Below are positions 3,265 to 39,717 of a DNA stretch of 64,000 nucleotides, piece by piece. Location of the stretch: NCBI RefSeq assembly GCF_029227915.1, contig NC_079882.1, positions 18,798,501-18,862,500 on the forward strand. Reading direction: 5' to 3'. A program made the translations under genes and the position numbers. Position 1 is the first letter of the stretch; every line of letters starts with the position of its first letter. The stretch comes from Hydractinia symbiolongicarpus. Lineage: Eukaryota; Cnidaria; Hydrozoa; Anthoathecata; Hydractiniidae. The notes beneath the pieces were generated by a model that was not told the DNA's origin, did no database searches, and saw only the letters and a list, made by a program, of their open reading frames with translations.

Positions 3265-3487
3265 CCGGTACGGGAAGCACTTCATGGAAGGATCCATTTA
3301 GTCTGTGAATATGTCGTATCCGACATTGTCGTATTCTTCCAACGACATCCGACACACGACGTTAAGCAATTTATCAACGTCGTAATGTTGTTAACACATA
3401 ATACTTCCTAGTATACATACTAGTGCCTAGCATAATATCTTTGTAATATACAGTAATACAGTGTAGTACATAGTAATATCCCGTATT

Positions 3488-4985
3488 TTACACTGTATTA
3501 CTTTGTAGTATATTCAGAAATACACTGTAATAGCTTGTAGTATTCAGTAATATACTGTAATACTTTGTAGTATTCGGTAATATACTGTAATACCTTGTAG
3601 TATTCAGTAATACACTGTAATACCTTGTAGTATTCGGTAATACACTGTAATACCTTGTAGTATTCAGTAATACACTGTAATACCTTGTAGTATTCGGTAA
3701 TACACTGTAATACCTTGTAGTATTCAGTAATACACTGTAATGCCTTGTAGTATTCGGTAATACACTGTAATACCTTGTAGTATTCGGTAATATACTGTAA
3801 TGCCTTGTAGTATTCAGTAATACACTGTAATACTTTGTAGTATTCGGTAATATACTGTAATACCTTGTAGTATTCGTTAATATACTGTAATGCCTTGTAG
3901 TATTCAGTAATACACCGTAATACCTTGTAGTATTCGGTAATACACTGTAATACCTTGTAGTATTCAGTAATACACTGTAATACCTTGTAGTATTCGGTAA
4001 TATACTGTAATGCCTTGTAGTATTCAGTAATATACTGTAATACTTTGTAGTATTCGGTAATATACTGTAATACCTTGTAGTATTCGGTAATACACTGTAA
4101 TACCTTGTAGTATTCGGTAATACACTGTAATACCTTGTAGTATTCAGTAATACACTGTAATACCTTGTAGTATTCGGTAATACACTGTAATACCTTGTAG
4201 TATTCAGTAATACACTGTAATACCTTGTAGTACACTGTAATACCTTGTAATATTCGGTAGTATACTGTAATACTTTGTAGTATTCAGTAATACACTGTAG
4301 TACCTTGTAGTATTCAGTAATACACTGTAATACCTTGTAGTATTCGGTAATACACTGTAATACCTTGTAGTACACTGTAATACCTTGTAATATTCGGTAG
4401 TATACTGTAATACCTTGTAGTATTTAGTAATACACTGTAATACCTTGTAGTGTTCAGTAATACACTGTAATACTTTGTAGTATTCAGTAATACACTGTAA
4501 TACTTTGTAGTATTCAGTAATACACTGTAATACCTTGTAGTATTCGGTAATACACTGTAATACCTTGTAGTACACTGTAATACCTTGTAATATTCGGTAG
4601 TATACTGTAATACCTTGTAGTATTTAGTAATACACTGTAATACCTTGTAGTATTCAGTAATACACTGTAATACTTTGTAGTATTCAGTAATACACTGTAA
4701 TACTTTGTAGTATTCAGTAATACACTGTAATACCTTGTAGTATTCAGTAATACACTGTAATACCTTGTAGTATTCAGTAATACACTGTAATACTTTGTAG
4801 TATTCAGTAATACACTGTAGTACTTAGTAATATACTGTAATATTTTGTAGTATTCAGTAATACACTGTAATACCTTGTAGTATTCGGTAATACACTGTAG
4901 TACTTGTAACATCTAACTGTAATATTTTGTAGTATTTGGTAATACACTGTAATACTTGGTAATATACTGTAATACATGTAATAGA
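3488..4985 (-). repeat. Left arm minisatellite, 30-bp unit, ~50 copies
   Basis: About fifty head-to-tail units lie here, in reverse orientation to those at 33.9-39.5 kb. On the plus strand a unit reads tattcggtaa, tacactgtaa, taccttgtag. A few 20-bp units lack one decamer (for example near 4231-4260 and 4371-4400). Because 30 is a multiple of three and the unit lacks stops in several frames, long spurious reading frames appear. They encode only decapeptide repeats and are not genes. Confidence 0.95.
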
Positions 4986-6589
4986 TCTTTGACGGTTGCG
5001 CAAAGCATTCTGGGTATTTTTTCTTCCCAGCTGGTTCACATATCACATGGAACGTTGGCTGCAGATACAGATATAGATACAGATACAGATAATCTTTTCT
5101 GGGAATGAAAGTTTACAAAAATTGAACTGAATAAATACAAGGAAGTATTAACAAACTATCACAACCAGCAGGGGACCTCTCAAAACAGCCCGAAGGCCAG
5201 TTAAAAGATGCGAGTAGGACCCTATGCAAATTTGTACAAACTTCAATACTGCAAGAGCTCTGATTGCTCATGAGCAAAAAGTAAAAGTAAAAGCCACTGC
5301 TGAATATACAATTTGCTTCTGCGTAACATGCAAAAAGACATTTGAATCAGACGATGCGCTGACTTGGAATGTTTGGAAGGGTAAGTCGGTTTAAAATAAA
5401 TGAAACAAATACCCTTATTTGGTTGGTTCGTTTCTTATGTAATTTCGAATGTTTTTTTTCCTTCGAAATTCGAACTGTATATTCTAATTTAAGTAGTTGT
5501 GGAGGGAAATTTGTCATTGGTATTCTATCATGTGCAAAATTTGATTATTGCTTTAAGACGAGAATAGAATCCAGGTAATAAAATGGCTACTGACTGGTTT
5601 TGATCCTGCCCTGTAAAATACAAAGCCATTTGTCAGACCTTGGAGCATGTGCAATAACTTTGACCTCCAAAAGGAGAAAATCCCTCTGACAACTACAACA
5701 AAAAAGCTTAAAAAATGTTCCTTTAAAACAAAACTTTGGCTGCGAGAAAGAGTAAAGCTAGCTAAGTCTGTAACCTTAAATTTTGATAAAGTTGGATTTA
5801 AAAGCAATCCAGTGCAATTCCCTAGAGACAAAATTAGGGGCCGCTAACAGGGCCCCAAAAAATTTTTGAAGGCCCCTTAGGGCTCAATTAGGAAACTCTG
5901 ATTGTATTTCGGCCACAAGAACACAAATATTGCCCTCAACTGTTACTGACACAACTTCAGCTGCCATTCTCCTTTCGGTTTTGCTGTAATGGCAATGTTG
6001 ATGCTTTGCGCACTTTTTTCCCTTTATTCCGCCTACCCATCCTGTGCCCAAAAGGGACGTGAAATAATTAAGAAGTGCTAGTATGTTAACTTTGACCTGC
6101 TTCTTCTCCTATGCTTAATGCTCTTTTAGCCTTGCGTATTTTGATGGATGATATAGGTGAGTATGACCTGAATGTAAAAACAGTGGCAGTGGTCACAATG
6201 TCTCCCTTATAAGAATGACCACAAATAAGTCACACATAAGGGTTAAGTCCTGGTGTGTTGTCTTTTTTCTGCATCTTTGTAAGGAAATGATTACATACAA
6301 CACTTTGTAACTTAGTTTGCCAATCAATATAAGTTTTTTTGCTGTCTACGCATTTGACCAACTCCATTGCTTGCACATGGCTAGTGATCCAGCACGTTGG
6401 TTAATGCATAGATGACCTTTTACAGTACATGCATAGTGCCTCATTGCTTCCTTCAACATTATCCTCGCAATCCTTCTTCATCTCGCGTCCAGGACCATGA
6501 CCTGTTTTTTTTCGTTTCGAGAAAGGGCATTTTGCGTTCACCTCTCCAAATCGGTTGAACAAAGGTTTGTAAATTAGTTGAAGTGGGAT
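4986..6589. other. Non-coding stretch with a short GATACA microsatellite
   Basis: A (GATACA/GATATA) microsatellite lies at about 5062-5092. A GC-richer inverted motif (agggccccaaaaaa ... aaggcccctt) occurs near 5830-5880. Nothing else was recognised. Confidence 0.4.
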
Positions 6590-6695
6590 GTAATAACTAA
6601 AACAGGTAACTACCAGTCTCCACAGAACCAGCAGTCCCTGTAGAACGACCAGAAAACCAACAGCGAACCAGCAGTATCATCACAGAACCACCAAT
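6590..6695 (-). repeat. Inverted-repeat arm rich in GGTTCTG motifs (left)
   Basis: The reverse complement of this segment matches 13024-13172 ('ggttcgctg', 'ggttctctggt', 'cggagactggt', 'ttacctgttttagttatta'). Both arms contain internal variants of 'tggttctg'. They flank the copia element and look like the arms of an older fold-back or palindromic repeat into whose spacer copia inserted. Confidence 0.65.
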
Positions 6696-7206
6696 GAATA
6701 AATAGTTCCAATATGAAACTTCCACGCCAAAGTGAGCGAAACGAAGCTAATTAAATACATAACAGTCGAAGACCCTACTTTCCACTGGCTATTTCGTGTC
6801 CCTCGTACACAAACTAACGGTCCTCATGCAGGTGAATTTTAAAAATGACTCTCAAAGTGTTATAAACTTCATTCTACGTAAAAAAAATAATCACAATACA
6901 AAAAGTCGATCTTTTGTTATTCATTTCATAAAAATTCACGATTTGAATCAGCAAGAAAAGTGTTGTTTTGCTGGAGGTAACATATGTATTTTAGACGCTC
7001 GTTAAAAAAAGATGGTCGTCGTATTACCGAGTTCTATGTTCTAGCTATTGTTGTTATCATGGTAATCATTAGCATTCCTGATTGAAATTACTGAAAAAGA
7101 TTGAAATGTTGGTTTGTTATTTATTGCGTTGAAGAGTAAATTGCAAGGAAACAGAATGAGTCTTGATTTTTTAATCCCAGAACGGTATAATTTGGATAAT
7201 ATAGTG

Positions 7207-7288
7207 TATACTGTGAATAGATCTGTATTCTTTATTATGGCATAAAGCCATACATCTAAACCTAAAAGATATAATGAACATAATGACA
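7207..7288 (-). mobile_element. 3' LTR of copia element with target duplication TATAC
   Basis: The LTR is 7212-7288 (77 bp, TG...CA). It differs from the 5' LTR at 12779-12855 at four positions. The outer 5 bp, TATAC (7207-7211), is repeated exactly outside the other LTR at 12856-12860. Just inside (7289-7311, read on the minus strand) is the purine-rich run GAGAGAGAATG, a possible polypurine tract. An LTR this short is unusual. Confidence 0.85.
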
Positions 7289-7396
7289 ATCTTGCCACTA
7301 CATTCTCTCTCAATAAAACAAAATCATAAAAAGAAAGAAAGGAACACAATGTAAGAATGCTTTTAAAGTGTCATTTGGCATACTGTTATATTTGTT

Positions 7397-8599
7397 TTAA
7401 TTAAAACGGTATTTCAACTGTTCTCTACCGGATAGTATACGTAGCAGGTTTTCAGCTGAAGCAGTGCCTTTTGTAAGACAGTCAGCAATCTGATCACTTG
7501 ATTTCGTAAGAATGAGTTCCCCCATTTCTCCTTTTTCGACCATCTCACGAAGTGCACAAATATCAATATACAATCGTTTATCTTCTATGACGTTGGTATT
7601 TTTGACTGCTTCCGCAAGTGATTTATTTTCTGATATACAGATAATTGGTATATCAACTGAAAAAATCTCTTTAATTAGGGATCTGATCAACATAGCATGT
7701 TCCGCACCTTCTAAGAGAGCCATGGTTTCCGCACCCATGGCGCTTTTAACAGCCCATTTTAACTTGTGAGATCTCCAAATAATTGGCGGAATTTTGCTTT
7801 CACCATGCAGTAGCAGAACAAATCCACCTTGTGAGCCGCCATTAATTAAATTTCCATGTGATGCATCACTGAAAAGTATGAGCGATGATGCTTTAACATC
7901 TCCAGTGTTTGAAATAACAATCTTTACTTCAGTTTGCTGCAGATGTTTCAGCTGCTTGTTAGCTCTACGAGCATCAGCAACTGTTCCATATCTTATGCGA
8001 GTGCTTAAATCACAGGCAACGTAAGCAGCATCAGGTCTAGTTTGTTTTGCTGCCCATTGAATTTGACGTGCTTCATATTTTGTAAGTGGAATTGTAGACG
8101 TACTATTGGTCAAATTAATTGGTGAAATGTTACTAATGTAATTATGCTGATGAATAATTACTGCACCACACTCTTGTTCAATTTCTAATCCCAAAAAGTT
8201 AAACGACTTTGAATTCTCTTTACTAAGTGAGAATGTCTTACGTAAATGTGCAATGATAGTGTCATGAAACAAATCACTTCCAACGAAGAAGCAATCGTCA
8301 ACATGACAGCAAATTACACCTTTGAGAGTTTCTTTTCTCCAGAAAAATAATGCATTGTCATAAATGCTTCTTGTAGCTCCAACTTTATCGAATTCGTTAG
8401 ATAATGTCTCATACCAAGCGCGTGAAGCGTCGCACAAGCCATAAACAGGTGTTTTTAGTTTCCACAACTTGTCTGTGTTAGCTTCTGGTGGTGGAAGAAG
8501 ATGTACGACTCTATCAATCTTGGCACCTTGAAGAAACCCAGCTTTAATATCAAGATTGTAAAATTTTCCATCCATGGGTTGCACCAATATTACACACAA
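7397..8599 (-). pseudogene. Copia pol: reverse transcriptase C-part and RNase H
   Basis: A 400-codon open stretch encodes the RT palm and RNase H. It starts in the fingers/palm region (NLDIKAGFLQG, which carries the first catalytic Asp), then 'PVYGLCDASRAWYE' and the catalytic box HVDD (usual form YVDD) within 'GVICCHVDDCFFVG'. RNase H follows with 'LILFSDASHG' (catalytic Asp) and 'GAETMALLEGAEHA' (Glu), and the typical C-terminal 'ADCLTKGTASAENL'. The polypeptide is interrupted upstream by a frameshift at about 8570-8600, where the same protein continues in another frame. The product would be reverse transcription of the element's RNA in virus-like particles; the copy is dead. Confidence 0.9.
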
Positions 8600-9440
8600 G
8601 ACGAAAGTTCTCCTTGTTTACAGTTGGCGAGTCTGTTCGTATACCAATAGTGTCCTCCTCAAAACCTTGTGCCACTAATCGTGCTTTAATTTCTGTTTTA
8701 CCATCATGACTTTTCTCAGATATCGCCCAGTGGGTTGTGGTTATGTCTTGCCCTTTGTCTTCAACTTCATCATAAACATTGTAATCACGCCATTTAGTTA
8801 ATTCTTTATGTTGAGCTTCACTAACATCACATGACGTTTCTACATTATATACTGACTCTGTGTTTACCTTTTCCCAATCCAAAATGTTTTCAAAGTCAAT
8901 TGATTTCATGGCTTTGGTTTTACCATCTTTGACATTCAACCAATTCTTATATGCTCCAACTCCAGATTTTCCTACTTTACCAGCACGACTAACAACCATA
9001 AATTCAGCAAGTTTATTAGTATCAGGATCAATAAACCTAACCCTCTCCCTGACTTTTGGAAGGGTCACTGTCAATGACTGTTCATTGCGAGGTGTGTTAG
9101 AAACTTCTTGCTCAATGCTTGATTGATGTGTTGTTTCAACCTGAGCATGGGAAATAGCAGGGATCTCATTTGTATTTACGGTATGATCACTAGGAATGTC
9201 ATCAAGTACAACTTCTGACGATGTGTTGATATCAAAATCGTTTACGCTTTCAAGCAACCCATTCGCTACGCTGTTTGAAATCTCATCAAAGCAATCTTCT
9301 TCTTTGGTTGTAGTTTTCTTCACTTGAGGGTTTCCACTTGTGCTTTCCTGACAACTACGGTGTCCCTTCACTGATTGCAAGTGACACTCGAACGTAAGTT
9401 CCTCCATGTTTAACAAGGACCTGTTTTCCATCAATGCCAA
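8550..9440 (-). pseudogene. Copia pol: integrase/RT linker and RT N-terminus
   Basis: This frame covers the poorly conserved linker after integrase and the beginning of RT, recognisable by 'TEIKARLVAQGFEED', 'DSPTVNKENFRLV' and 'IGATHGWKI'. It runs into the next pol segment through a one-base frame change near 8580. Its first ~30 residues are out of frame with integrase. Confidence 0.8.
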
Positions 9441-9600
9441 GGACTACACCAGGTCCTCTCCACTCTTTCTCTCCACGTCGCTTATAGTATACCAATTCAC
9501 CATTATAAAAATCTTTGCTGGTAGATGTCCGTGTTTGATGACTGAGTGCTGTTTTAAGATTCACTTTCAATGAATGCTTTGCGAGCAACATGCAGGGCAT
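9355..9600 (-). pseudogene. Copia integrase C-terminal domain fragment
   Basis: The segment 'YYKRRGEKEWRGPGVVLGID' followed by 'GKQVLVKHGGTYVRV' is the typical C-terminal DNA-binding segment of copia integrases. It is in a different frame from both neighbouring pieces, so frameshifts lie near 9400 and 9580. Confidence 0.8.
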
Positions 9601-9912
9601 TCAGATGATTCGCAATTAATTGACTGGGTGTAACTGTTCGAAGAACAGGAGGCTTGGCTGTAAGCACAGATGGGAGATTTGGATTGCGTCCAAATACAAG
9701 CTGATTGAGACTGAATCCACGGTTATTATGCAACGCATTCTTGGCACAATTGGCCCATGTAAGTGCATTTTCAACAGAACAACTAGTGTTGTCAACAATT
9801 TTCATAATCATATTTTCCAGGATGAAATTATGATGCTCACATACACCATTTGACCATGGAGCTTCTGCTGCTGTTGTATACACTCTTGTGTTTAACAGTT
9901 CTGCTATATCTC
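9554..9912 (-). pseudogene. Copia integrase core, 3' portion
   Basis: This carries the third acidic residue of the DDE triad in 'APWSNGVCEHHNFILENM' and continues to 'NALHNNRGFSLNQLVFGRNP'. The first two acidic residues are encoded on the other side of the 1.1-kb TTAA insertion (11025-11261), so the insertion splits the catalytic core. Confidence 0.85.
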
Positions 9913-9916
9913 TTAA

Positions 9917-11020
9917 AGGGGAACTCCAGTAAAAATCACTTTTTTCTTTTTTGCTATATACGTACTCAGAAAGTAGTTACACATCTTTCGTAGCGATCAA
10001 GTTTCTATTCTTTGTTTTTCAAAAAAGAAGCTTTTTTTATGGAAGGACATGCCGAATATTTTCGGCATGTACTCATTTTCTTCAATCTTTGTAATGTTTA
10101 AGGCTGCATGTGATGCTGATAATGCAGTTTCTAAAACAGCTTTGTCAAAACAACTACTTATAAGTCAGTAGCTTCTGCAACGCATTTATGACCTACCATA
10201 ATCATAAGAATGATTTTTATTTGTACAATATTAATACTCATGTTTTACCAACTTATCACGACCCGAACATTATTCGATCTTTCGATCACGCATTTGAATG
10301 GTCCTCCATCATGGTGAAAATTTCAACGTTACATAAAATTTGTTTGCATTTGTGTGCAAAAAAGCACGTGCGGATGAAAAATATTGCTGAATTGTGAAAT
10401 AAAAATAAATTGCCTTGTAAAGTAAGAAAGTTTTTTTACTGAAACAAATGATAAAGTTTTTGTGATGAAAAGAATGTTAGAAAAAAGCCAATTAAATATA
10501 TTTTCTATTTCTTTAAAAAATATTTTGCTCAGAACGTTGTTTTGAGTTAGTAGAAGACACCTCGTCACTTTGCATCATTATTAATTTCTCCCTTGTGAGA
10601 CACAAGAGGTTCGAAGTCGTGTGGCTGTAGCTTTGTAAAGTCTTTTTCATGAAGAGATTATCCTATTCTATGTTTATCCTAATTATCCTATTCTATGTTT
10701 TTTAAGTTAAAATCTTCGTCATTACTACAAGACGTTTTATCAACGAACAATGTAAACACTGAGTAAACAAACTTTTAGAAGGTGTGCTGCTGAGCTCACG
10801 GACTGTCTGCACGATGTGACGTATGCCTATTTATTCGGACCTAGTCCTCTCAACTTTACGCAACCTTGCAAATTTATTTAAAATTGAAGATGTTTACAGA
10901 CCCCATTAAGGTATAAATAAAGATTTTTAACGATTGTAAAAGGTTTATTCTGACATATTTATGTATTGTCTTCTTAAAATAACATTTTTTTCAAATATTT
11001 TTTTTCACTGGAGTGCCCCT
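9917..11020. mobile_element. TTAA-type DNA element (piggyBac- or Kolobok-like MITE) inside copia integrase
   Basis: The ends are inverted: AGGGGAACTCCAGT at 9917 and ACTGGAGTGCCCCT ending at 11020 (one mismatch in 14). TTAA lies at both sides (9913-9916 and 11021-11024). A TTAA target is used by piggyBac and Kolobok. Removing the element and one TTAA restores the copia integrase sequence around the junction. No transposase is encoded. A short perfect palindrome (CATGCCGAATA ... TCGGCATG) lies at about 10048-10070. It is younger than the copia insertion. Confidence 0.88.
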
Positions 11021-11024
11021 TTAA

Positions 11025-11981
11025 GAGCTCATTGTTGAACTCCCCTCCGTTGTCTGAAAAAATCGAGTTTGGTGTGCCAAAAATAGCAACCCAGTGCTTG
11101 AGAATTGTGTCTACGATAATTTCCTTATTCTTGGATTTGATAATTGTTGATGCACTGTATCTACAGAACACATCAATCATATGAAGTATGGTTAACTTTT
11201 TATGATTAACTGTCAGGAATTTTAGGTCCATGGCAAGGCATTCATTGACATCTGAGGCCATTGGTAGTGAGACAATTGGCCCTTGATCGAGCCTTCATAT
11301 ATATCTACTGCATGTGTCACAAGAGTTTGTAACATTGTCAATTTGCTGAAATAACTCTTTATCTTCAACATTTTCATCTTGGAGAAGAGTTTTCAGTTTG
11401 CTGCTGTCTATGGGATGTCCAAACTGTTTGTGAAGCTTTGTAGCTATTTTGCCTTTTTCTTCAGGTGATTTTACAGTGAGATCGTTGACTGTGAATATAA
11501 CTCTGGTGGCATTTACACCCGGAGATGTTTTGTTAACAGCAACTTGCTTAGGTGTAAGAGGTATACAGTAATGGCCATTTGACGTGTGTTGTAAAGGAAT
11601 GTCTCTTCCAAACATAGTGATTTTATCATTAACAAAATCAAGTTGGCTATTAGCTGCTTTCAGACTCTTTTTTGATAACAATAATGGTAATTCACAATCG
11701 ACAACATCAGTAAGAATATGGGCTTGCATTCCAGCCATATTAACAGGGATGTTAACTTTTTTAACTGAGGGGAAGCTTCCACCTGGCCCAAATTTAAAGG
11801 ACTTGTTACTCTTACTTTCAGCTAAAGCTGTCCCTTCTGGCATAGTGTCTATGTAACAGTCAAGCCAATTTTTACCACAAACTGTCGATGAACATCCTGA
11901 GTTTAGTAAAGCACAATTCAAAGACTCAGACACAACTTGCTCCATAAAGCATTGTTCCACACCCTTTGCGAAAAACTGCAC
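11025..11981 (-). pseudogene. Copia protease and integrase N-terminus/core, one TGA
   Basis: On the minus strand the aspartic protease region is 'CALLNSGCSSTVCGKNW'. The expected catalytic motif D-S/T-G reads N-S-G, so the catalytic Asp is lost. The integrase HHCC zinc domain follows ('KLHKQFGHP' ... 'CDTCSRYI'). A TGA near 11292-11294 comes next, and in the same frame the core begins with the first Asp in 'ECLAMDLKFLTVNHKK' and the second in 'NSIFSDNGGEFNNE'. The core is then cut by the TTAA element. Confidence 0.87.
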
Positions 11982-12751
11982 ATGTACTTTATCCTGCCCT
12001 TTGCTTCCTTTATTCTTATCAGGACACAGTCATTCATGAAATGCATTATAGATTTGCAATGGTGACATTGCAATGGATGTCCATCAGGACCATTAGGGTT
12101 GTACTGGCTTCTTTTAGCACTGAAATATTTACCACCTCTGCCACGTCCACGAGTGTTCCAATTGTTAAAACGTCGTCTGTCAAACTTTTGACCATATAAT
12201 ACTTCTTGCTCAACACCAATATCATTACTGTCTCTACTACTTTCACTTTGAGCACATTGATCATAAATGGCTTTTATCTGTTTTTTCATAGAGTCGTATG
12301 TGAGGGAAGGAACCGTAGCACGTGTTAGTTCACATGTAGCTTTCGGTACATGTGCATTTTTTAGTAGTTGATATGCAAGAACTGCAGTTGGTAACTCAAT
12401 TTTAAAACTCTTAAGTTTTTGATTCAACTGTTCAAATTCATTTACATAATCACCAATCGACATTGTCTTGGAACGGTGAAAGGTCTCAAATTTTTCGTAA
12501 GCATTGAACATTGCTTGATCTTCAGTAATGCCATATAGTTCTTTTATTTTATTAACAAGTTTATTTAAACCATCTTCTTCATTCAATTCTTCTTTCGTTA
12601 AGGCTGACGTACTTCTGAATTTAAACTCAAATAAACAACTGGTCCTTGTTTCTTCTTTGGAAGTTCTGTAACTACTTCCCATAAAATCCCCATCTTCAGA
12701 AAATTGGGGCAATCCATACTTTTGTGCCATCATGATTGTTCCAGTTGCCAT
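11918..12751 (-). pseudogene. Copia gag with CCHC zinc knuckle
   Basis: This 277-codon frame starts 13 bp after the primer site. The region 'MSIGDYVNEFEQLNQKLKSF' is typical of the copia gag (UBN2-like) fold. An arginine/glycine-rich stretch (about residues 200-206) precedes an intact zinc knuckle CHHCKSIMHFMNDC (C-X2-C-X4-H-X4-C, at about 12026-12067). The frame shifts soon after the knuckle and the protease continues in another frame. The product would package element RNA. The gag part itself is open. Confidence 0.85.
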
Positions 12752-12763
12752 CTTCTTAACTAG

Positions 12764-12775
12764 CCTCTGCTACCA
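12764..12775 (-). promoter_or_regulatory. Primer binding site for initiator tRNA-Met
   Basis: The plus strand reads CCTCTGCTACCA, the 3' end of metazoan initiator tRNA-Met including CCA, so the minus-strand RNA would pair with it. It lies 3 nt inside the 5' LTR, as expected for a copia primer site, and fixes the LTR boundary. Confidence 0.85.
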
Positions 12776-12778
12776 GAA

Positions 12779-12860
12779 TGTGAATAGATCTTTATTCTTA
12801 ATTATGGCATAAAGCCGTACATATAAACCTAAAAGATATAATGAACATAATGACATATAC
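12779..12860 (-). mobile_element. 5' LTR of copia element with target duplication TATAC
   Basis: The LTR is 12779-12855 (77 bp) and about 95% identical to the 3' LTR. TATAC follows at 12856-12860. The matching duplication shows that the copia element was inserted as a unit and that both ends are intact. Confidence 0.85.
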
Positions 12861-13023
12861 TACTAATTTATTCTCAATATTCCCGGAAATAAGGGGCGGG
12901 ATAGTAAATTCTACCGAAATTTTGCAGTTTTTTTTTTTTTTTTTTTTTTTTATAAGGCATGGAGCATTTACAGCGATCGCTATTCTGATGATTCCGTCAA
13001 CTATTGTTTTTTCTCATCAACAT

Positions 13024-13172
13024 TTTCTGGTGGTTCTCAACCAAGACTACTCGTTCTGTCATAGTACTGCCGGTTCGCTGCTGGTTCTCTGGTTGTTCTA
13101 CGGAGACTGGTGGTTCGCTGCTTGTTCTGTGGTGGTTCTGCGGAGACTAGTTGTTACCTGTTTTAGTTATTA
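13024..13172 (+). repeat. Inverted-repeat arm rich in GGTTCTG motifs (right)
   Basis: This is the partner of 6590-6695 in opposite orientation. A 24-nt T run lies nearby (about 12927-12950). An open frame crosses this region but consists of the repeat and shows no domain. Confidence 0.65.
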
Positions 13173-16100: not shown

Positions 16101-17099
16101 AGCATTAATTACTAATTACAGCCTTATAGCTAGCTACAGTACAGTGTCCTAAAAGCATTTTTGGGAGACCTCTAGCTAGCTAGCTAGTTTAAAGGCTTTT
16201 AGGATATATTAAGTTGCCTTTATTGTACAAAAAGAAATTAAAAGTACAAATAAGTGCCTAATAAAAGTTTTTTTCAAAATATATATCATAAAATTAGTAT
16301 CACAAAGATAAAAACAGATATCAAAAATCAAAACTGTCCTGCCGCCAGCAGTTTCGCAAGGCAAATGACTGAATAAACGTGAAGTCCAAAGTTCAACTTG
16401 CACCACCGAGTTCCGCAAATTCATAATGGCGCATAATCTCCGAAATGGTCTATTCAGAGCTATACGCTATCTTGTGAACTGCCTTGGTCAATTAGTGTTA
16501 CTAAAAAACCTTTTAGAAATAACTCAACAAATTTTCCTGTTTTGCAAAAAAAATGCTACAGTACTATTTCTTTTTAGGAGTCGAAATACACGCAATATTA
16601 GCTAAATCAAATTCTATTTACCCTATTATTAACTAATAGCTATTTTCAACCGGTTATGAGAAAGTCGTAGCGTTCAATGGCTAGAGAGCTTTAAGAACGG
16701 GCCTTGTACAGCGCAATATAACTTAACTTCGTAGCAACCATATCGTCGTTATAAATGTAGACAATTAACATTGCCGGTAAAACGTGAAAGATGCAGTCAT
16801 AACTCAATTTTATATAGCTAGTTACACTATATTAATAACTATGTTCCTCCGAATAGTTTATTTATTCATTTTTTATTCATTCATTTATTTATAATGAATA
16901 TTTATACAGTATAAAACATCGTCTGCTATTAAAATGTGTCCTATAAATATTAGCAATATTAGTTTTTCTAACAGCTACGAACAAAAAAAGTCCATATACT
17001 TTTTTATCATTGTTGTCATGAGGTTTTAGTTTTAAAAATATTAAAAGTTCAAAATCAAATTACACTGCTTCCTATAAACAGCAAAAAAAACATGACACA
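13173..17099. other. AT-rich non-coding region
   Basis: Only short frames are present and they show no domain or splice-bounded exon. (CTAG)n is seen at about 16170-16190. I see nothing else to annotate. Confidence 0.4.
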
Positions 17100-19080: not shown

Positions 19081-19084
19081 TTTA

Positions 19085-23255: not shown

Positions 23256-23261
23256 TCGGTG

Positions 23262-26480: not shown

Positions 26481-26489
26481 TCTGTGCTC

Positions 26490-26650
26490 AATGGATTTCA
26501 GGATGGACCAGGTTTCCAGTGTTTAGCTCCCATTGCTACAAAAATCTTTATGAAATGACAAACTAACTAGACAATGGGGGGACATTGAACTTATAATCTC
26601 AAGTAGAGGAGATGATTCAAACGCTCTACCGACAGAGCTGCACTAAATCC
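26490..26650 (-). mobile_element. tRNA-related SINE fragment
   Basis: On the minus strand, 26648-26574 begins GGATTTAGTGCAGCTC and shows a D-arm (GCTC TGTCGGTA GAGC) and a T-arm-like 'aagttcaatgtccc' near the 3' end. The layout is that of a tRNA head. About 80 bp of non-tRNA sequence continues beyond. No confident anticodon stem forms, so it is a tRNA-derived repeat or pseudogene rather than a working tRNA gene. Confidence 0.45.
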
Positions 26651-29160: not shown

Positions 29161-29162
29161 TT

Positions 29163-29560
29163 AACATAGATATTGAGGTCAACATACCCATACTCATCGA
29201 AAAGGATTGGAATGAGTACTATTACAGGGAGCTGTTACAATTCAGGCATGAGCCATCTAACGAAGTGGACGGAAATGCAATAGCAATAAAAAGAACTGAT
29301 TCTTTACAAAACGAAAGCATTGTTGTACACATGCCACAAAACATATCAAAAATATTTTTCATGTTCTTGAAAGTCTCGAACACTTCGATTACAGCTTAGG
29401 TTTGTGGAAAGAGAGTTAATCGTGGAGGTGGATATGGTCTGGAAATACCAGTTGTGTATAAGTTTTATGGACAAGAAAAATTGATTGACTGGTTTGCGAA
29501 GAAGATTGAGACTGTAAAAGCAGACATTTCCTGTAAAGTTTTAAAGTGTTTAAAATAGAT
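29163..29560 (+). pseudogene. HIRAN-like domain fragment of a mobile-element ORF
   Basis: One frame reads through about 390 bp with a single TAG near the middle. Landmarks are 'YYRELLQFRHEPSNEVDGNA' followed by 'IAIKR', then 'VVHMPQNISKIFFMFL', then after the stop 'CGKRVNRGGG' and 'LEIPVVYKFYGQEKLI'. The order (R-E...N/D-A-I-A-I-K, ...H-M-P...I-S-K, ...G-K-R) matches HIRAN-type domains, as found in many repetitive ORFs of cnidarians and other invertebrates. No linked helicase or transposase was found. The assignment is by motif order only. Confidence 0.55.
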
Positions 29561-30415
29561 ATTTTAAAATTAAATGCTTATCTCTAATTTTTTGGATTGT
29601 ACGCTAATTGGAGAGAAAAAAAGCCTATAGTTGCCATTTCGTGCAAAAAAATTTGTCCGCTCGAGTGTCCGTTAATTAAGTGTCCGCTAATTGAAGAGAA
29701 TACTGTATAAATTTATTTTCAGCAGCGTTTTAAGCTCTACTCAATAAAGGCGACGGGGAAACATGGGGAAAATTTTTTTTTTGTGTATATACTAAGTAGA
29801 TTTTTCTGCGGGCCTTATCGACTAGTGTAGGTGCTTACACGATTTCAACTGAGTTAACTATTTTTACTCGCTAAACGACAAAATTACAAGACGAAATTTA
29901 AGCAACAAATTACACATGTAAGATGACATAAAATATAATAAGAAATAAACACTTACTAGATATATAGTGGCGTAAGCCAAGCCAACTACATGTAAGAGAA
30001 AACAACTAAAACCTGAGATACAGGACAACTCCTGTGATGTATGAAAGAAAAATTTCACTCAACAGCAAATTTTATACAAAAATGTATGTTCGACTCTGTT
30101 ATTACATGTTGAAGACTGAATGCGCAGAAAAAAGATGTGCAAGACGTGCAGAAAATTTAACTAAAAATAGTACCAAAATTACAATTATTCTCTTTACATA
30201 ATTAACACGGGACAATACATCACAACACAAAACTAACAAAATGCATCTTGTTCTCCACCGCAGAGCGAACTCTACAGCAGAGCACATACGCGACACCACA
30301 AGGACAATACAAATGACGTATCAAAATAAATGTCAATACGGCCGGAAATTCATGTAGGCTGTTGTTTTGTGAGCTACTTTACGTATCCGCACCCTAAGCA
30401 ACGTTCATTTACACA
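29561..30415. other. Non-coding stretch with old DNA-transposon end motif
   Basis: 'gtccgctcgagtgtccgttaa' and 'gtgtccgctaattgaagaga' near 29656-29700 are repeated 'gtccg-taat' motifs resembling the subterminal sequence of an old DNA transposon. Nothing else was seen. Confidence 0.35.
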
Positions 30416-30424
30416 TATGCGCAT

Positions 30425-30595
30425 TAGAAAAGATAGAATTATCACATTTATGTTATCTTAAAATAACTCGAGTTATCTTACAATCAAGACATTTATGTGA
30501 ATATACACGCATTCCGAAATCACATTAATAGAGTTATCTTAAGATAGCACTTGTTATCTTAAAATAACTTTATTAATGTGACTTTTGAATGCCGT
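30425..30595. mobile_element. Two adjacent palindromic stem-loop MITE-like units
   Basis: 30507-30593 folds back on itself: 'cattccgaaatcacattaat' pairs with 'attaatgtgacttttgaatg', with 'ttatcttaagata' near the centre. A shorter palindrome built from the same words (cacatttatgttatctt ... agttatctta ... atttatgtg) lies immediately left at about 30437-30500. The shared words suggest two copies or a partial duplication of one hairpin MITE. Confidence 0.6.
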
Positions 30596-33500
30596 AGGGC
30601 TGAGCCGAAACCAAACCATCGCGCTATCGCAATTAAAAAAGGTATTAAAATTAAAAACTTAAATTTAGAGTTAAAAACTCTAATTTAGTATTTTTAGAAA
30701 AAACAACTTTTCTTTTTTATTTCCAGATCTCCTTCCTGGTTATTTCTTGAAGTTGGATATGTCAGGTTAACAATAACAAATTTTGAAGAGGTTTTTCTGT
30801 TTGTGTAAAATCTTTCTGACGCTATACGTTAATTATTTACTAAGGGTAATCAATTTCATTGTAGCGCGCTCTCAAAATGAGCCCTAAAAGAAAGCCAGCC
30901 CTTAGCAAAAAATGGCTATAAATATTTCATAAGTTATTAAATGTTTCAATCCAAATATTAAATTATTACGGTTCTTGACATTCCTTTACATTTCGGGGAT
31001 CGTGTGCGCGGGGTTGATGATGGGCTATGTTACGGTAATCCCCTAAAAATAAGTTAATAAAAAGGGAGAAGAAAAACGCGAATGGTCTGAAAAAGATCCT
31101 GAATCTAAACATAGATCTTGATAAACGTAGGTCTCTTTTAATGTGTTTCTTTGTGAACTAAAAAATCTCACTATAGGAGTCTCAAAGGCTCTTTATAGGA
31201 GAACAGAGGTTTCTACTGTTACATGTATGTTAGCAATTTATTATGTATAAATATGCCTCAGGGTAAGATATCAAAGTTTCCAATAATCTGTTAGGTTTAC
31301 TGAATTTTGTTTGATCTGACCTACATACTAACTATGAGTATAGCCTAACGCAACTATGACATCATAACCATTGAAACTTTAAATTGCTTCTAGTCAACAT
31401 TAGAGTAAAAATAAATAATAAAAACATGTCTGTCATGTCACATCATACTTCATTTTAAGTGAAGAAAATAAAAAAAAAAGTTTGACCTTTGTTTCCCATT
31501 ACCGCGAACGTTTGTCTGTTTTATATAATAATGTTTTGAGTAAAAAATTTTGGAATGAATTTCTCTACAAATTGTCATTTTGCTCGATATTCAGCAAATT
31601 ATAAAGTGTAACCTTTCTGGAGTATGGCATTGAAAAATAGGTGCAACTTACACTCGTTTTTCCGTAGTATATTTCGTGCACATTAACCAATCACAGAAAA
31701 ACTTAACCACATAAGAATATAAAAACCATTTCCGTTAAGGTGGATTTCCACTTAAAATCAAACAAATCGGAAAAAAGCAATAAAAATACTGAAATTTGAT
31801 TAAATATCTGCTAATTATTTTGTTTTTAAAATTTTTTGTTCCTGAAAGTTGACTGGCTTTAAAACTTTCTGCTTTCTTAGCATTGAAATAATCCACTCCG
31901 CCGCTATTCCTTTGCAGGCTTAATTTTGTTTTAAAAAGATTTAATCTTTGACGTCAGTTAACTAGAGAATTGATATTAAAACTGGCTGAACTGACTTGAA
32001 CAACGCTCAATCAATAGTCATGATAATGCCAAACCTACAATCTTGGGCGACGTTTTTGGTTATAAAATATGGTGTAGGTAGGACCAGCTCATACACGTTG
32101 TTAACATTTCTGAAAGTACTGAGAGAAAAAGATATTTTTATTTTCCCATTTTTTGCTAAAATTGACCCAGTCCCAAGTCATTTAACGTACAAAACGCCTC
32201 AGATTATTCTGGGGCCTGTTAACAATACAGTTGATAACTCCAGCATTCATTTTATCAAATCACTTTCTCGAGTCTCTTGAACTTTCGTTAATACTTCATG
32301 GAGAAAGACATAAACAGAAAAATAACTGATACAAATATAATCTGATTTCTAACATATATACATTGTGCTTTTAAACAATTTTGGCAGAGCTACATATCAG
32401 TCCAGAACCTTTAGGACTGTGAAATATTTCTGCCAAGTAATTGTAAAAAATATTTAGTAAAATAAAAAAAATAATAAACCTTTGTAAATAAGCAAAATAG
32501 AAAGAAAATAAAACACTTCAACACTACAAAACAAAAGTAAGTTCAAATAAAAAAGATATCGTTCTAAATTTTAAACACTTTCTAGACAAAACAGTGATTT
32601 TATATATGTCCTTTTTGTTTTTCGACCAATAACAAATTGTGCACTTAATAAGGTTCAGCATAATTAACGTAATATATATCTACGATATCTCCAAAATTAC
32701 ATAAGATGTAAACTACATTTATTAAAACGCTTAACGTATTTGTCCGAATCATGCTACTAGACACAAAAAGTTATTAAACAAAACAAAGAAGCACGACATT
32801 TTATAGTTTGTTACCACTTGCTATTTTAATATAACGCAGTAAAAAAAAGGAGGTAATTCAGCACGTCTTTTATCTCATTTTCTTTTCCGCTTCCCTTCCA
32901 CCCTTTCATTAGCGCTCAGGCTGTCAAATAGTATAACGCTTTCTAAACGTAAGTGTAATACAGCTAGTTATTTATATACTAGTTTATACTTCATGCATTT
33001 TTAGCACAAAGTGTAGATTATGAACGATTAGTTAGTGCAACACTCCAGTTCTATAAAACATCGCCTAAAAATTTTCTAAAGAGATTCTATTTCGTCGGAA
33101 TTTTTTTTTATACGCCGGTTTTTACAACGGGAAATGTAATTGTTTTGTTATGAATTGGTGTATTGGTATTATTTTGTTTTAATCTGCAACATTTTTTAAA
33201 AAATTAGGGTGATAAGAATGCACGAAAAAAACTTCGATATTTCGACTTACAAGAACACCGTCAAGGAATATTAGAGCCAGTATTAAACACTGCAGGACCT
33301 CTGAAGCAAGTTATATATATCCTAACATGGGGAGCAATGATTAGTGCATATTATAGTATCAGGATACGAAATTGTAGGAATCCCGCAACCCCCCCTTGCC
33401 TTTGCATTCCACCACGCCACACGCATATCGATGTTAAAAATTCCCAATTAGAAATATTGTCGTCCCAAAGTTTACAAAATTAAAGATAATCTTTGAAGCT

Positions 33501-33930
33501 CAAAAATAAACAACTTAGCTTTGGTCTAATTTAGGTAACGCAGTAGTGTTCATCTTATTGGCGTATAGATATTTGAAAATCAAACAAAAACAATAGGGAT
33601 AATACTAATGATTTGTCAAACTACAGAGTACCACTGTTTATTCAACATGCTGTCGTCGAGTGTTTATTGTAGCCTCTTTGCAACGGTTGTTGGTTTTCGA
33701 CTAGTGACTTACACGAAAGTCAAGCTAATGGCGGGGGAAAATGTATGATCACTGAGGACAAAAACAACAAACTTAAATCATCTTAAATATCACACTGGAC
33801 ATCCAAATACAAATGACAGAAAAGTCCCATATATAGCTTTATTACCCAGGTAAAGGGCGGCATGTCATTGGTTACAACTTACGTCATAGCGGGCAATAGC
33901 AACCGTGTTTAAAGTTTTAATAATCCATAT
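30596..33930. other. AT-rich non-coding stretch up to the right minisatellite arm
   Basis: A 94-codon frame at 31996-32280 lacks any recognised domain and has no convincing flanking signals. A short repeat at about 33686-33735 (ttggttttcgact...acttacacgaaagtc) recurs at 54772-54820, outside the giant element. Confidence 0.35.
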
Positions 33931-33944
33931 AACAACGTATTACT

Positions 33945-36900
33945 ATTATTGTATTACCGAATACTACAAGGTATTACAGTATATTACTAAATACTACAAG
34001 GTATTACAGTGTATTACCGAATACTACAAGGCATTGCAGTATATTACTGAATACTACAAGGTATTACAGTGTATTACTGAATACTACAAGGTATTACAGT
34101 GTATCACCGAATACTACAAGGCATTACAGTATATTACCGAATACTACAAGGTATTACAGTGTATTACTAAATACTACAAAGTATTACCGAATACTACAAG
34201 GTATTACAGTATATTACTGAATACTACAAGGTATTACAGTGTATTACCGAATACTACAAGGCATTACAGTATATTACTGAATACTACAAGGTATTACAGT
34301 GTACTACTGAATACTACAAAGTATTACAGTGTATTACCGAATACTACAAGGTATTACAGTGTATTACTGAATACTACAAAGTATTACAGTGTATTACCGA
34401 ATACTACAAGGTATTACAGTATATTACTGAATACTACAAGGTATTACAGTGTATTACCGAATACTACAAGGCATTACAGTATATTACTGAATACTACAAG
34501 GTATTACAGTGTATTACTGAATACTACAAGGTATTACAGTGTATTACCGAATACTACAAGGCATTACAGTATATTACCGAATACTACAAGGTATTACAGT
34601 ATATTACTGAATACTACAAGGTATTACAGTGTATTACCGAATACTACAAGACATTACAGTATATTACTGAATACTACAATGTATTACAGTGTATTACTGA
34701 ATACTACAAGGTATTACAGTGTATTACCGAATACTACAAGGCATTACAGTATATTACCGAATACTACAAGGTATTACAGTGTATTACTAAATACTACAAA
34801 GTATTACAGTGTATTACTAAATACTACAAAGTATTACTGAATACTACAAAGTATTACAGTGTATTACTGAATACTACAAGGTATTACAGTGTAATACTGA
34901 ATACTACAAAGTATTACAGTGTATTACCAAATACTACAAGGTATTACAGTATATTACTGAATACTACAAGGTATTACAGTGTATTACCGAATACTACAAG
35001 GCATTACAGTGTATTACTGAATACTACAAGGTATTACAGTGTATTACCGAATACTACAAGGCATTACAGTATATTACTGAATACTACAAGGTATTACAGT
35101 GTATTACTAAATACTACAAAGTATTACTGAATACTACAAAGTATTACAGTGTATTACTGAATACTACAAGGTATTACAGTGTATTACCGAATACTACAAG
35201 GTATTACAGTATATTACTGAATACTACAAGGTATTACAGTGTATCACCGAATACTACAAGGCATTACAGTGCATTACCGAATACTACAAGGTATTACAGT
35301 GTATTACTAAATACTACAAAGTATTACCGAATACTACAAGGTATTACAGTACATTACTGAATACTACAAGGTATTACAGTGTATTACCGAATACTACAAG
35401 GCATTACAGTATATTACTGAATACTACAAGGTATTACAGTGTACTACTGAATACTACAAAGTATTACAGTGTATTACCGAATACTACAAGGTATTACAGT
35501 GTATTACTGAATACTACAAAGTATTACAGTGTATTACCGAATACTACAAGGTATTACAGTATATTACTGAATACTACAAGGTATTACAGTGTATTACCGA
35601 ATACTACAAGGCATTACAGTATATTACTGAATACTACAAGGTATTACAGTGTATTACTGAATACTACAAGGTATTACAGTGTATTACCGAATACTACAAG
35701 GCATTACAGTATATTACCGAATACTACAAGGTATTACAGTATATTACTGAATACTACAAGGTATTACAGTGTATTACCGAATACTACAAGGTATTACAGT
35801 GTATTACCGAATACTACAAGGCATTACAGTATATTACTGAATACTACAAGGTATTACAGTGTATTACTGAATACTACAAGGTATTACAGTGTATTACCGA
35901 ATACTACAAGGCATTACAGTATATTACCGAATACTACAAGGTATTACAGTATATTACTGAATACTACAAGGTATTACAGTGTATTACCGAATACTACAAG
36001 ACATTACAGTATATTACTGAATACTACAATGTATTACAGTGTATTACTGAATACTACAAGGTATTACAGTGTATTACCGAATACTACAAGGCATTACAGT
36101 ATATTACCGAATACTACAAGGTATTACAGTGTATTACTAAATACTACAAAGTATTACCGAATACTACAAGGTATTACAGTATATTACTGAATACTACAAG
36201 GTATTACAGTGTATTACCGAATACTACAAGGCATTACAGTATATTACTGAATACTACAAGGTATTACAGTGTACTACTGAATACTACAAAGTATTACAGT
36301 GTATTACCGAATACTACAAGGTATTACAGTGTATTACTGAATACTACAAAGTATTACAGTGTATTACCGAATACTACAAGGTATTACAGTGTATTACTAA
36401 ATACTACAAAGTATTACTGAATACTACAAAGTATTACAGTGTATTACTGAATACTACAAGGTATTACAGTATATTACTGAATACTACAAGGTATTACAGT
36501 GTATTACCGAATACTACAAGGCATTACAGTATATTACTGAATACTACAAGGTATTACAGTGCATTACTGAATACTACAAGGTATTACAGTGTATTACCGA
36601 ATACTACAAGGTATTACAGTATATTACCGAATACTACAAGGTATTACAGTGTATTACTAAATACTACATAGTATTACTGAATACTACAAAGTATTACAGT
36701 GTATTACTGAATACTACAAGGTATTACAGTGTATTACCGAATACTACAAGGCATTACAGTATATTACCGAATACTACAAGGTATTACAGTGTATTACTAA
36801 ATACTACAAAGTATTACAGTGTATTACTAAATACTACAAAGTATTACTGAATACTACAAAGTATTACAGTGTATTACTGAATACTACAAGGTATTACAGT

Positions 36901-39530
36901 GTATTACCGAATACTACAAGGCATTACAGTATATTACTGAATACTACAAGGTATTACAGTGTACTACTGAATACTACAAAGTATTACAGTGTATTACCGA
37001 ATACTACAAGGTATTACAGTATATTACTGAATACTACAAGGTATTACAGTGTATTACTAAATACTACAGAGTATTACCGAATACTACAAGGTATTACAGT
37101 GTATTACTAAATACTACAAAGTATTACTGAATACTACAAAGTATTACAGTGTATTACTGAATACTACAAGGTATTACAGTGTATTACCGAATACTACAAG
37201 GTATTACAGTATATTACTGAATACTACAAGGTATTACAGTGTATTACCGAATACTACAAGGTATTACAGTGTATTACTGAATACTACAAGGTATTACAGT
37301 GTATTACCGAATACTACAAGGCATTACAGTATATTACTGAATACTACAAGGTATTACAGTATATTACTGAATACTACAAGGTATTACAGTGTATTACCGA
37401 ATACTACAAGGTATTACAGTGTATTACTGAATACTACAAGGTATTACAGTGTATTGCTGAATACTACAAGGTATTACAGTGTATTACCGAATACTACAAG
37501 GTATTACAGTATATTACCGAATACTACAAGGCATTACAGTATATTACTGAATACAACAAGGCATTACAGTATATTACTGAATACTACAAGGTATTACAGT
37601 ATATTACTGAATACTACAAGGTATTACAGTGTATTACCGAATACTACAAGGCATTACAGTATATTACTGAATACTACAAGGTATTACAGTGTATTACTGA
37701 ATACTACAAGGTATTACAGTGTATTACCGAATACTACAAGGTATTACAGTATATTACCGAATACTACAAGGCATTACAGTATATTACTGAATACTACAAG
37801 GCATTACAGTATATTACTGAATACTACAAAATATTACAGTGTATTACTAAATACTACAAGGTATTACAGTGTATTACCGAATACTACAAGGCATTACAGT
37901 ATATTACCGAATACTACAAGGTATTACAGTGTATTACTAAATACTACAAAGTATTACAGTGTATTACCGAATACTACAAGGTATTACGGTATATTACTGA
38001 ATACTACAAGGTATTACAGTGTATTACCGAATACTACAAGGCATTACAGTGTATTACTGAATACTACAAGGTATTACAGTGTATTACCGAATACTACAAG
38101 GCATTACAGTATATTACCGAATACTACAAGGTATTACAGTGTATTACTAAATACTACAAAGTATTACTGAATACTACAAAATATTACAGTGTATTACTGA
38201 ATACTACAAGGTATTACAGTGTATTACCGAATACTACAAGGTATTACAGTATATTACTGAATACTACAAGGTATTACAGTGTATTACCGAATACTACAAG
38301 GCATTACAGTATATTACTGAATACTACAAGGTATTACAGTGTATTACTGAATACTACAAGGTATTACAGTGTATTACCGAATACTACAAGGTATTACAGT
38401 ATATTACCGAATACTACAAGGTATTACAGTGTATTACTAAATACTACATAGTATTACTGAATACTACAAAGTATTACAGTGTATTACTGAATACTACAAG
38501 GTATTACAGTATATTACTGAATACTACAAGGTATTACAGTGTATTACTGAATACTACAAAGTATTACAGTGTATTACCGAATACTACAAGGTATTACAGT
38601 ATATTACTGAATACTACAAGGTATTACAGTGTATTACCGAATACTACAAGGCATTACAGTATATTACTGAATACTACAAGGTATTACAGTGTACTACTGA
38701 ATACTACAAAGTATTACAGTGTATTACCGAATACTACAAGGTATTACAGTATATTACTGAATACTACAAGGTATTACAGTGTATTACTAAATACTACAGA
38801 GTATTACCGAATACTACAAGGTATTACAGTGTATTACTAAATACTACAAAGTATTACTGAATACTACAAAGTATTACAGTGTATTACTGAATACTACAAG
38901 GTATTACAGTGTATTACCGAATACTACAAGGTATTACAGTATATTACTGAATACTACAAGGTATTACAGTGTATTACCGAATACTACAAGGTATTACAGT
39001 GTATTACCGAATACTACAAGGCATTACAGTATATTACTGAATACTACAAGGTATTACAGTGTACTACTGAATACTACAAAGTATTACAGTGTATTACCGA
39101 ATACTACAAGGTATTACAGTGTATTACTGAATACTACAAAGTATTACAGTGTATTACCGAATACTACAAGGTATTACAGTATATTACTGAATACTACTAG
39201 GTATTACAGTGTATTACCGAATACTACAAGGCATTACAGTATATTACTGAATACTACTAGGTATTACAGTGTATTACCGAATACTACAAGGCATTACAGT
39301 ATATTACTGAATACTACTAGGTATTACAGTGTATTACCGAATACTACAAGGCATTACAGTATATTACTGAATACTACAAGGTATTACAGGGTATTACTGA
39401 ATACTACAAGGTTTTACAGTGTATTACTGGATACTACAAAGTAATACGGCATATTACTAAGTACTACAGTATACAATACGGCATATTACTAAGTACTACA
39501 GTGTATTACTGTATATTACAAAGATATTAC
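33945..39530 (+). repeat. Right arm minisatellite, 30-bp unit, ~185 copies
   Basis: Head-to-tail units are made of three related decamers: GTATTACAGT, GTATTACCGA (or GTATTACTGA) and ATACTACAAG. Occasional 20-bp units lack one decamer. Variant units recur in the same order at long distance, showing higher-order duplication of about 1.1-1.35 kb blocks. The variant 'gtatcaccga' occurs near 34104 and 35243, and 'atactacaatgtatt' near 34671 and 36021. Copies degrade towards 39,420-39,530. The orientation is opposite to the left arm. Long reading frames across it are a by-product of the 30-bp period. Confidence 0.95.
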
Positions 39531-39717
39531 ATTAGGCAGTAGTATGTATTAACAACATCACGACGTTGATAAATTGTTTAACGTCGCGTGTCGAATGCAG
39601 TTGAGCTGTCGTGAGGAAAGGAATACGACAATGTCGGGTAAAGGTGAGGTTGTGTTAGAGGTTCAAGTATACGACATATTCACAGACTATATGGATCCTT
39701 CCATGAAGTGCTTCCCG

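Follow-up and report, generated by a model that had tools for sequence, protein, structure and literature searches.

The question raised by this locus is whether two minisatellite arrays, which face each other in inverted orientation in a 64,000-nucleotide stretch of Hydractinia symbiolongicarpus DNA (the window), are the arms of one mobile element and, if so, which enzyme moves it. The original prediction was of a single transposition unit, 36.4 kb long, whose unequal, Foldback-like arms are made of a 30-bp repeat. The unit is borne out by its inverted ends, the direct repeat that borders them and paired copies elsewhere in the genome, and both arrays are confirmed. The ends and arms are arranged as follows, in window positions.

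3264..3271, unstranded: left copy of the 8-bp target site duplication GCCGGTAC
3272..39716, plus strand: whole element, a giant non-autonomous transposon of lineage A, 36,445 bp
3272..3432, plus strand: left terminal sequence (L-type end), beginning GGGAAGCACTTCATGGAAGGATCC, with matches in the genome
3433..4983, plus strand: left arm array, 30-bp unit, about 53 copies
33950..39468, minus strand: right arm array, 30-bp unit, about 189 copies
39469..39716, minus strand: right terminal sequence (R-type end), with matches in the genome
39717..39724, unstranded: right copy of the 8-bp target site duplication GCCGGTAC

The outer flanks are identical at 48 of 49 positions, as had been claimed (3271-3319 against the reverse complement of 39669-39717), and the inverted homology runs on, with gaps, up to both arrays, while the first 17 bases of the terminus have two matches within the window against 0.01 expected. 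With the terminal sequence included the arms measure about 1.7 kb (left) and 5.8 kb (right), and the 30-bp arrays, which occupy 1.55 and 5.5 kb inward of the homologous ends, represent the long terminal inverted repeats of tandem repeats that define Foldback elements. The hexamer CCGGTA, originally read as a 6-bp target duplication, is present at both ends, but the true duplication is the 8-mer GCCGGTAC. Matches to the left end in the genome start at 3272 in 28 of 41 cases, at 3271 in 12 and at 3275 in one, and because most start at 3272, the target repeat, not the element, includes base 3271 and its partner; the 6-bp reading was therefore rejected. A duplication of 8 bp rather than 6 fits a known superfamily, and thus the view that size and duplication fit no standard family was wrong. 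What had been put forward as an undescribed system shrinks to an undescribed variant of the KDZ (Kyakuja-Dileera-Zisupton) superfamily, as an older copy with like termini encodes a KDZ transposase.

The 36-kb stretch belongs to a young transposon family with over 30 members, most of these very large elements being 31-69 kb long. The left end has at least 41 matches in the genome, 37 of them 96-100% identical, and the right end at least 40 full-length matches at 95-100%; both counts, and hence the copy number, are lower bounds, with 40 of 108 candidates scored for the left end and 40 of 258 for the right, where 14 of 54 rows (short array matches) were left out. A genome search with a 24-mer terminus pattern gave 110 copies and its reversed control none, and the 100 of these termini that were listed comprise 41 pairs and 18 single ends. 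Correctly oriented inverted end pairs number 36 (median 36.5 kb) and were picked blind to their flanks before duplications were checked. An exact 8-bp duplication borders 32 of the 36, compared with 0 of 1190 mismatched pairings, and the 32 duplications are 32 different 8-mers at different sites. The inverted pairs that the original prediction proposed to look for therefore exist, but they are bounded by 8 bp and not by 6. Of the 32 pairs that reach 30 kb or more, 30 carry the exact duplication, with sizes of 31-69 kb and one of 172 kb. The four of all 36 pairs that lack it are two small copies matching at 6 of 8 positions, a 44-kb pair matching at 4 of 8, and a 55.5-kb pair whose diverged ends could not be parsed by the script. 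Extra copies, a further 40-kb pair among them, add three more exact 8-bp duplications to the 32. Initial pairing left five of the 41 left-end and four of the 40 right-end matches unpartnered; the partner of the left end at C2:28315908 was found by the terminus pattern search, with an exact duplication, and the right end at C13:9261769 is part of a 4.2-kb copy that consists of arms only and has its own exact 8-bp duplication.

End homology of the young pairs stops precisely at GGG...CCC. Joined flanks of 32 copies were searched for unoccupied target sites, and those of the 39.2-kb and 55.7-kb copies occur elsewhere in the genome at 100% identity, with 209 and 168 bp, respectively, spanning the junction. 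The proposed empty-site check thus succeeded for two other copies, but an empty site for the window copy itself was not found in the sequence searched. In 27 lineage-A copies the sequence corresponding to window position 5060 lies 1.3-3.9 kb from the left end.

Whether such a unit carries its own transposase can be judged from its interior, in which the following features were recognized.

4984..33949, unstranded: interior
6589..13174, unstranded: smaller inverted-repeat element nested in the interior, its arms themselves repetitive, flanked by the 9-bp duplication GAAGTGGGA (6580-6588 and 13175-13183)
7212..12855, minus strand: copia retrotransposon inside the nested 9-bp-duplication element; 77-bp LTRs 94.8% identical, 5-bp duplication TATAC
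15239..20003, unstranded: place at which the older copy has a KDZ transposase, chromodomain and kinase stretch (about 14 kb there)
23267..23716, plus strand: 82-bp minisatellite
24072..24548, plus strand: fragment of 159 aa that we take to be reverse-transcriptase-like; also in the 55-kb copy, no Pfam match

The interior, nested elements included, moved as one unit, because most of it, copia included, is common to a 55-kb copy on another contig at 96-99%. Window positions 7050-32023 match that copy at 95.6-98.9% with small gaps, while 32024-33949 were not found in the tiles read of it. A 51.9-kb copy is 99.9% identical to the window over 1901 bp, and window 5060-5760 is present at 40 or more places in the genome, a lower bound with 40 of 165 candidates scored. 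The nested copia has RVT_2 and gag domains, and its insertion site is unoccupied in the older KDZ-bearing copy. None of 10 interior fragments gave a Pfam match above cut-off, the copia domains alone exceeded it in another 10 frames, 9 of which are interior, and Rfam at gathering scores gave no matches.

The older relative (C2:6510946-6568650) is 57.7 kb long with an exact 8-bp duplication and the same kind of termini. Its left arm has the same 30-bp array (90.5% over 401 bp), and the interior segments that it has in common with the window are 87-93% identical. It encodes four collinear KDZ transposase pieces (PF18758), consecutive in profile order, of which two are above and two below the Pfam cut-off, the single matches being modest (best E 2.3e-9). 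A cysteine cluster (CxC) lies upstream on the same strand (PF18803, E 3.6e-11; PF18802, 2.9e-6). Segments that are also present in the window lie on both sides of the KDZ exons, and the 20 kb examined around the gene showed neither inner ends nor long inverted repeats. There are three such older copies on C2, and because their flanks are the same, the KDZ-bearing locus is one insertion, later triplicated, so that the KDZ link rests on one event. Within 15239..20003 only window 19121-19265 matches the older copy (20 kb of which were compared), and the KDZ, chromodomain and kinase frames of that copy all lack a match in the window. Its six transposase frames likewise gave no match in 50 kb of tiles of the 55-kb copy, in 1.9 kb of the 51.9-kb copy or in five small copies. 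With no match to the KDZ transposase, the window copy is therefore a non-autonomous derivative. That longer young copies retain the KDZ stretch was not borne out at the one place checked in the 51.9-kb copy.

We propose, with considerable confidence, that this is a giant non-autonomous KDZ family with Foldback-style minisatellite arms, for which a KDZ transposase acting in trans is the probable mover. The young copies were presumably moved by the enzyme of the KDZ lineage seen in the older relative. Supplied in trans, it would recognize the GGGAAGC... ends and perhaps also the 30-bp arm repeats, the arrays then being putative transposase binding sites; both ends would be brought together across 31-69 kb (172 kb once), and the whole segment would be inserted via an 8-bp staggered cut. 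The lineage of the window appears to have lost the transposase stretch, and its interior to have been turned round with respect to the ends, most simply through recombination of one inverted array with the other. A more speculative suggestion is that the arrays are long landing pads that let the KDZ transposase synapse ends tens of kilobases apart. If so, size would set no practical bound on animal cut-and-paste up to about 170 kb, and whole gene blocks could be carried, as an animal counterpart of Starships, which are cargo-carrying elements.

The main competing explanation accepts the family as real but makes the KDZ gene a mere passenger, the mover being another transposase that gives 8 bp (MULE/Foldback, hAT or P-like). 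Duplications of 8-11 bp are given for MULEs in the relevant part of PMC6446971, and retroelements certainly ride as passengers here. Against this, the KDZ exons are flanked by window-shared segments with neither inner ends nor long inverted repeats in the surrounding 20 kb, 8 bp is the length described for Zisupton, and the pieces scanned contained no other transposase, the MULE domain PF10551 included, so that we consider a different mover unlikely. A Polinton/Maverick or other virus-like giant element would suit the size range, and the 6-bp duplication as first read would have fitted it, since 6 bp is the Polinton length in the section of PMC10045372 concerned. The duplication here is 8 bp, however, and no such polymerase, capsid or integrase was found in the 19 interior frames scanned, where the Pfam matches above cut-off are those of copia; this reading has a negligible probability.

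A small foldback might instead have inserted and grown to 36 kb in place by nested insertions, without ever moving as a unit. Nested insertions are indeed present (the 9-bp-duplication element and copia), as are small whole copies of 3.6-7.6 kb. However, those of 3.6, 5.2 and 7.6 kb contain pieces of the same interior and are read as internal deletions because these fragments remain in them. Growth in place is already refuted for the window copy by the interior shared with the 55-kb copy at another site and by the duplications of the large pairs, and we regard it as very improbable. The same grade applies to segmental duplication or assembly artefact in place of transposition, although the three older copies with the same flanks show that such duplication occurs at that locus and a 4.6-kb copy (L087) has inverted flanks: for the young copies it is refuted by the 32 different 8-mers, the stop of homology at GGG...CCC and the two empty sites.

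As a KDZ family these elements resemble Zisupton in the catalytic domain and associated cysteine cluster of the older copy, in their terminal inverted repeats and in the 8-bp duplication, which the Zisupton account in PMC12730594 gives and which also occurs in one Dileera family, two Kyakuja families making 7 bp in the families listed. They differ in that the young copies read are without transposase and in their arms of a 30-bp repeat. The giant KDZ elements of Ectocarpus, as portrayed in sections of PMC12477816, are likewise very large cut-and-paste elements in which nested unrelated elements are generally fixed among copies and some families are presumably wholly non-autonomous. Their maximum there is 30.3 kb, versus 31-69 kb and one of 172 kb here, those sections report no minisatellite Foldback arms, and the host is a brown alga and not an animal. 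Drosophila Foldback, Galileo and Tetris share long tandem-repeat inverted termini, non-autonomous forms and rearranged copies, but Tetris is a Mutator element with 8-10 bp duplications, Galileo belongs to the P superfamily, and the present elements are assigned to KDZ and have tens of kilobases of interior. In Ising's composite TE of Drosophila (excerpted in PMC6431247) large DNA between foldback sequences also moves as a unit, as a cytologically visible segment, whereas the present family has over 30 related copies that share a single interior. Brown algae have already yielded published giant KDZ elements in which nested elements are fixed; the apparent novelties are the minisatellite arms, an animal as host and sizes in this range.

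Passages of a 2019 review (PMC6431247) state that DNA transposition efficiency falls significantly once the cargo exceeds 6 kb and that one large survey of Pack-MULEs had none above 7 kb, and also that artificial constructs of 100-200 kb have been moved. The 30 separate insertions of at least 31 kb, each with a precise target duplication, indicate repeated natural DNA transposition in an animal at 5-11 times the 6-kb figure, with dead retroelements travelling aboard the transposed segments. The combination of KDZ ends and Foldback arms offers a testable idea of how this is done, namely by comparing repeat count with transposition.

The terminus gave no matches in the viral contigs searched, and a 20-mer in a bacterial contig was discarded as a chance match (54% G+C, flanks without further likeness). 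A GRWD1-like gene adjoins the element and points to a cnidarian, probably medusozoan, host: among the best 120 of its 813 matches there is one at 97%, and the highest with an organism name are Hydra vulgaris at 67% and the jellyfish Rhopilema at 65%.

The giant element at window positions 3272-39716 is real and striking, and its ends have the architecture of the original prediction. The inverted outer flanks of its minisatellites, claimed to be identical at 48 of 49 bp, gave the same identity when measured (3271-3319 against the complement of 39669-39717), their gapped homology extends up to both arrays, and the arms are, as described, unequal and made of a 30-bp repeat. The first 17 bases of the terminus occur twice in the window, compared with 0.01 occurrences expected (up to three mismatches).

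Arms and internal features of the giant element
3433-4983: minisatellite of the left arm, 30-bp unit
33950-39468: minisatellite of the right arm, 30-bp unit
6589-13174 (6580-13183 with duplication): smaller inverted-repeat element flanked by a 9-bp duplication, GAAGTGGGA; its arms are internally repetitive, with a GAACCAGCAG-like motif
7212-12855, minus strand: copia element with RVT_2 and gag matches, 77-bp LTRs and a 5-bp duplication, TATAC

We located the window on contig C8 of a 481-Mb assembly (G000), in which the left terminus (170 bases) matches at least 41 places, with 96-100% identity at 37 and 69-92% at the rest, and the right terminus (237 bases) has at least 40 full-length matches at 95-100%. 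When these were paired solely by contig and orientation, a right partner was present for 36 of the 41 left matches, which bears out the expectation that the terminal sequences occur as inverted pairs. The paired copies measure 3.6, 5.2, 7.6 and 14.2 kb, 31.3-68.7 kb and, in one case, 172 kb, with a median of 36.5 kb. The 24-base terminus pattern (up to three mismatches) is found 110 times in the genome versus 0 for the reversed control, and the 100 of these termini that were listed gave 41 pairs totalling 1.67 Mb and 18 single ends. The 172-kb pair of ends (G000:C4:12432842-12604779) has an exact 8-bp duplication, and its unread interior may include later insertions.

The left matches begin at base 3272 in 28 of 41 cases, at 3271 in 12 and at 3275 in one; hence the element begins GGGAAGC, and the direct repeat flanking it in the window is the 8-bp GCCGGTAC rather than the 6-bp CCGGTA first proposed. 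Exact 8-bp direct repeats bound 32 of the 36 pairs (30 of the 32 pairs of at least 30 kb) and every one is a different 8-mer, compared with 0 of 1190 exact 8-mers, the best being 6/8, in a mismatched control of left flanks against the right flanks of other copies. The pairs are thus bounded by duplications as predicted, but of 8 bp and not 6. Those lacking an exact repeat are two small copies (6/8), a 44-kb pair (4/8) and a 55.5-kb pair whose diverged ends were not parsed by the script; a further 40-kb pair and a 4.2-kb arms-only copy have exact 8-bp duplications. In the 4.6-kb palindromic copy L087 (G000:C5:16146250-16151030) the flanks are inverted rather than direct and the symmetry continues past the ends into them, so it is an inverted duplication of one end, or an assembly artefact, and not an insertion.

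Both flanks of 32 copies were also joined and compared with a small part of the genome, where two of the 32 joins were found intact, that of a 39.2-kb copy on C9 (209 bp, 100%, spanning the junction) and that of a 55.7-kb copy on C8 (168 bp, 100%). This is most naturally read as two insertions into repeats, sister copies of which preserve the pre-insertion site. The empty site predicted for the window copy had no match in the part compared, and its join is among the 30 of 32 that were negative.

An older relative (C2:6510946-6568650, 57.7 kb), of which two 10-kb stretches were read, points to the transposase. It has two mismatches in each 24-base terminus and an exact 8-bp duplication, and it aligns with the window interior in segments at 87-93%. 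Its counterparts of window 19265 and 20004 are separated by about 14 kb that is absent from the window. This stretch contains, collinear on the same strand, a CxC2 cysteine cluster (E 3.6e-11 to PF18803) and then a Kyakuja-Dileera-Zisupton (KDZ) domain in four pieces, which cover profile positions 2-47, 53-105, 102-135 and 166-214 (E 0.0058, 2.9e-7, 0.0071 and 2.3e-9, the first and third under Pfam's cut-off). No inner transposon ends were found around the KDZ gene in 20 kb of the older copy. Farther along are a chromodomain frame (PF00385, E 7.2e-8) and a protein kinase frame (PF00069, E 2.6e-20), possibly cargo genes; they stand next to the KDZ gene at 2310-2837 and 3492-4508 of L090, a stretch read from this copy. 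A tblastn search (E up to 1) with the cysteine-cluster, KDZ, chromodomain and kinase frames gave no match in the window, the tiles of a 55-kb copy, the piece read of a 51.9-kb copy or any of five small copies. This older copy and two more in G000:C2:6288373-6686499 share identical flanking sequence and hence are apparently one insertion carried along by segmental duplication.

In the mechanism that we consider most likely, the terminal sequence is recognized by a KDZ transposase supplied by a source elsewhere, which moves the entire segment into a target site cut with an 8-bp stagger; those young copies, of the window's own family, that were read lack a KDZ gene and would rely on such a source. 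Zisupton duplications are reported to be 8 bp (PMC12730594). Our guess that the 30-bp arrays assist synapsis of the distant ends is suggested by Galileo, whose long terminal repeats reportedly offer its transposase several sites to bind (PMC3688188). The closest case in the open-access literature searched is that of the giant KDZ elements of Ectocarpus (up to 30.3 kb), which are described alongside giant EnSpm and Sola-1 elements; nested elements there are as a rule fixed from copy to copy, and some of the families presumably consist of non-autonomous copies alone. The same source also refers to a 31.7-kb KDZ element of Chlamydomonas that transposes actively (PMC12477816). Most known Foldback arms belong to Mutator-like elements, Galileo being one of the exceptions (PMC4079207). 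Neither a KDZ element with minisatellite arms nor a giant KDZ element from a cnidarian turned up in the literature searched.

The interior is shared among copies and travels with the ends. The segment next to the inner end of the left arm (window 5060-5760) has at least 40 genomic copies, 33 of them at 97-100% and seven at 87-94%. Arm length varies: in the 27 copies whose interior is oriented as in the window, 1.3 to 3.9 kb separate the left end from the start of this segment. Over the five tiles (50 kb) read from the 55-kb C10 copy, window 7050-32023, copia included, is common to both at 95.6-98.9% with small gaps, 32024-33949 has no counterpart, and the additional 20 kb holds further reverse transcriptase and endonuclease frames. 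Window 17031-18931 is 99.9% identical to a 1.9-kb piece of the 51.9-kb C7 copy, and the 3.6-, 5.2- and 7.6-kb copies, which hold pieces of this interior, are read as internal deletions. The copia element is nested within the smaller inverted-repeat element, and its insertion site is empty in the older copy. Its LTRs have diverged by about 5%, further than the 1-3% by which most young copies differ from the window at 5060-5760, in keeping with an entry that preceded amplification of the family.

Relative to the left- and right-type ends, the interior is oriented as in the window in 27 of 37 pairs (7.6-52 kb) and inverted in eight (14 kb, 55-69 kb and the 172-kb copy), the marker segment being absent from two. 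In the older copy the right-type arm adjoins the inner-left segment (401 bp, 90.5%), which is the inverted arrangement, and on this one copy the window lineage is probably the flipped configuration, recombination between the inverted arrays being the simplest route.

Neighbors elsewhere in the window
39798-41405: 1.6-kb element lying about 75 bp beyond the right end of the giant element; its 55-bp inverted ends match at 89%
46345-48715, plus strand: GRWD1-like host gene, about 7 kb from the giant element
51894-52095 and 63699-63892: two inverted copies (80%) of a short dispersed repeat that contains a GACA run
57199-57922: 724-bp MITE-like stretch with perfect 23-bp inverted ends

No duplication was recognized around the MITE-like stretch, the appearance of the dispersed repeat by eye suggests a SINE-like sequence, and a flanking repeat of up to 10 bp is possible for the 1.6-kb element.
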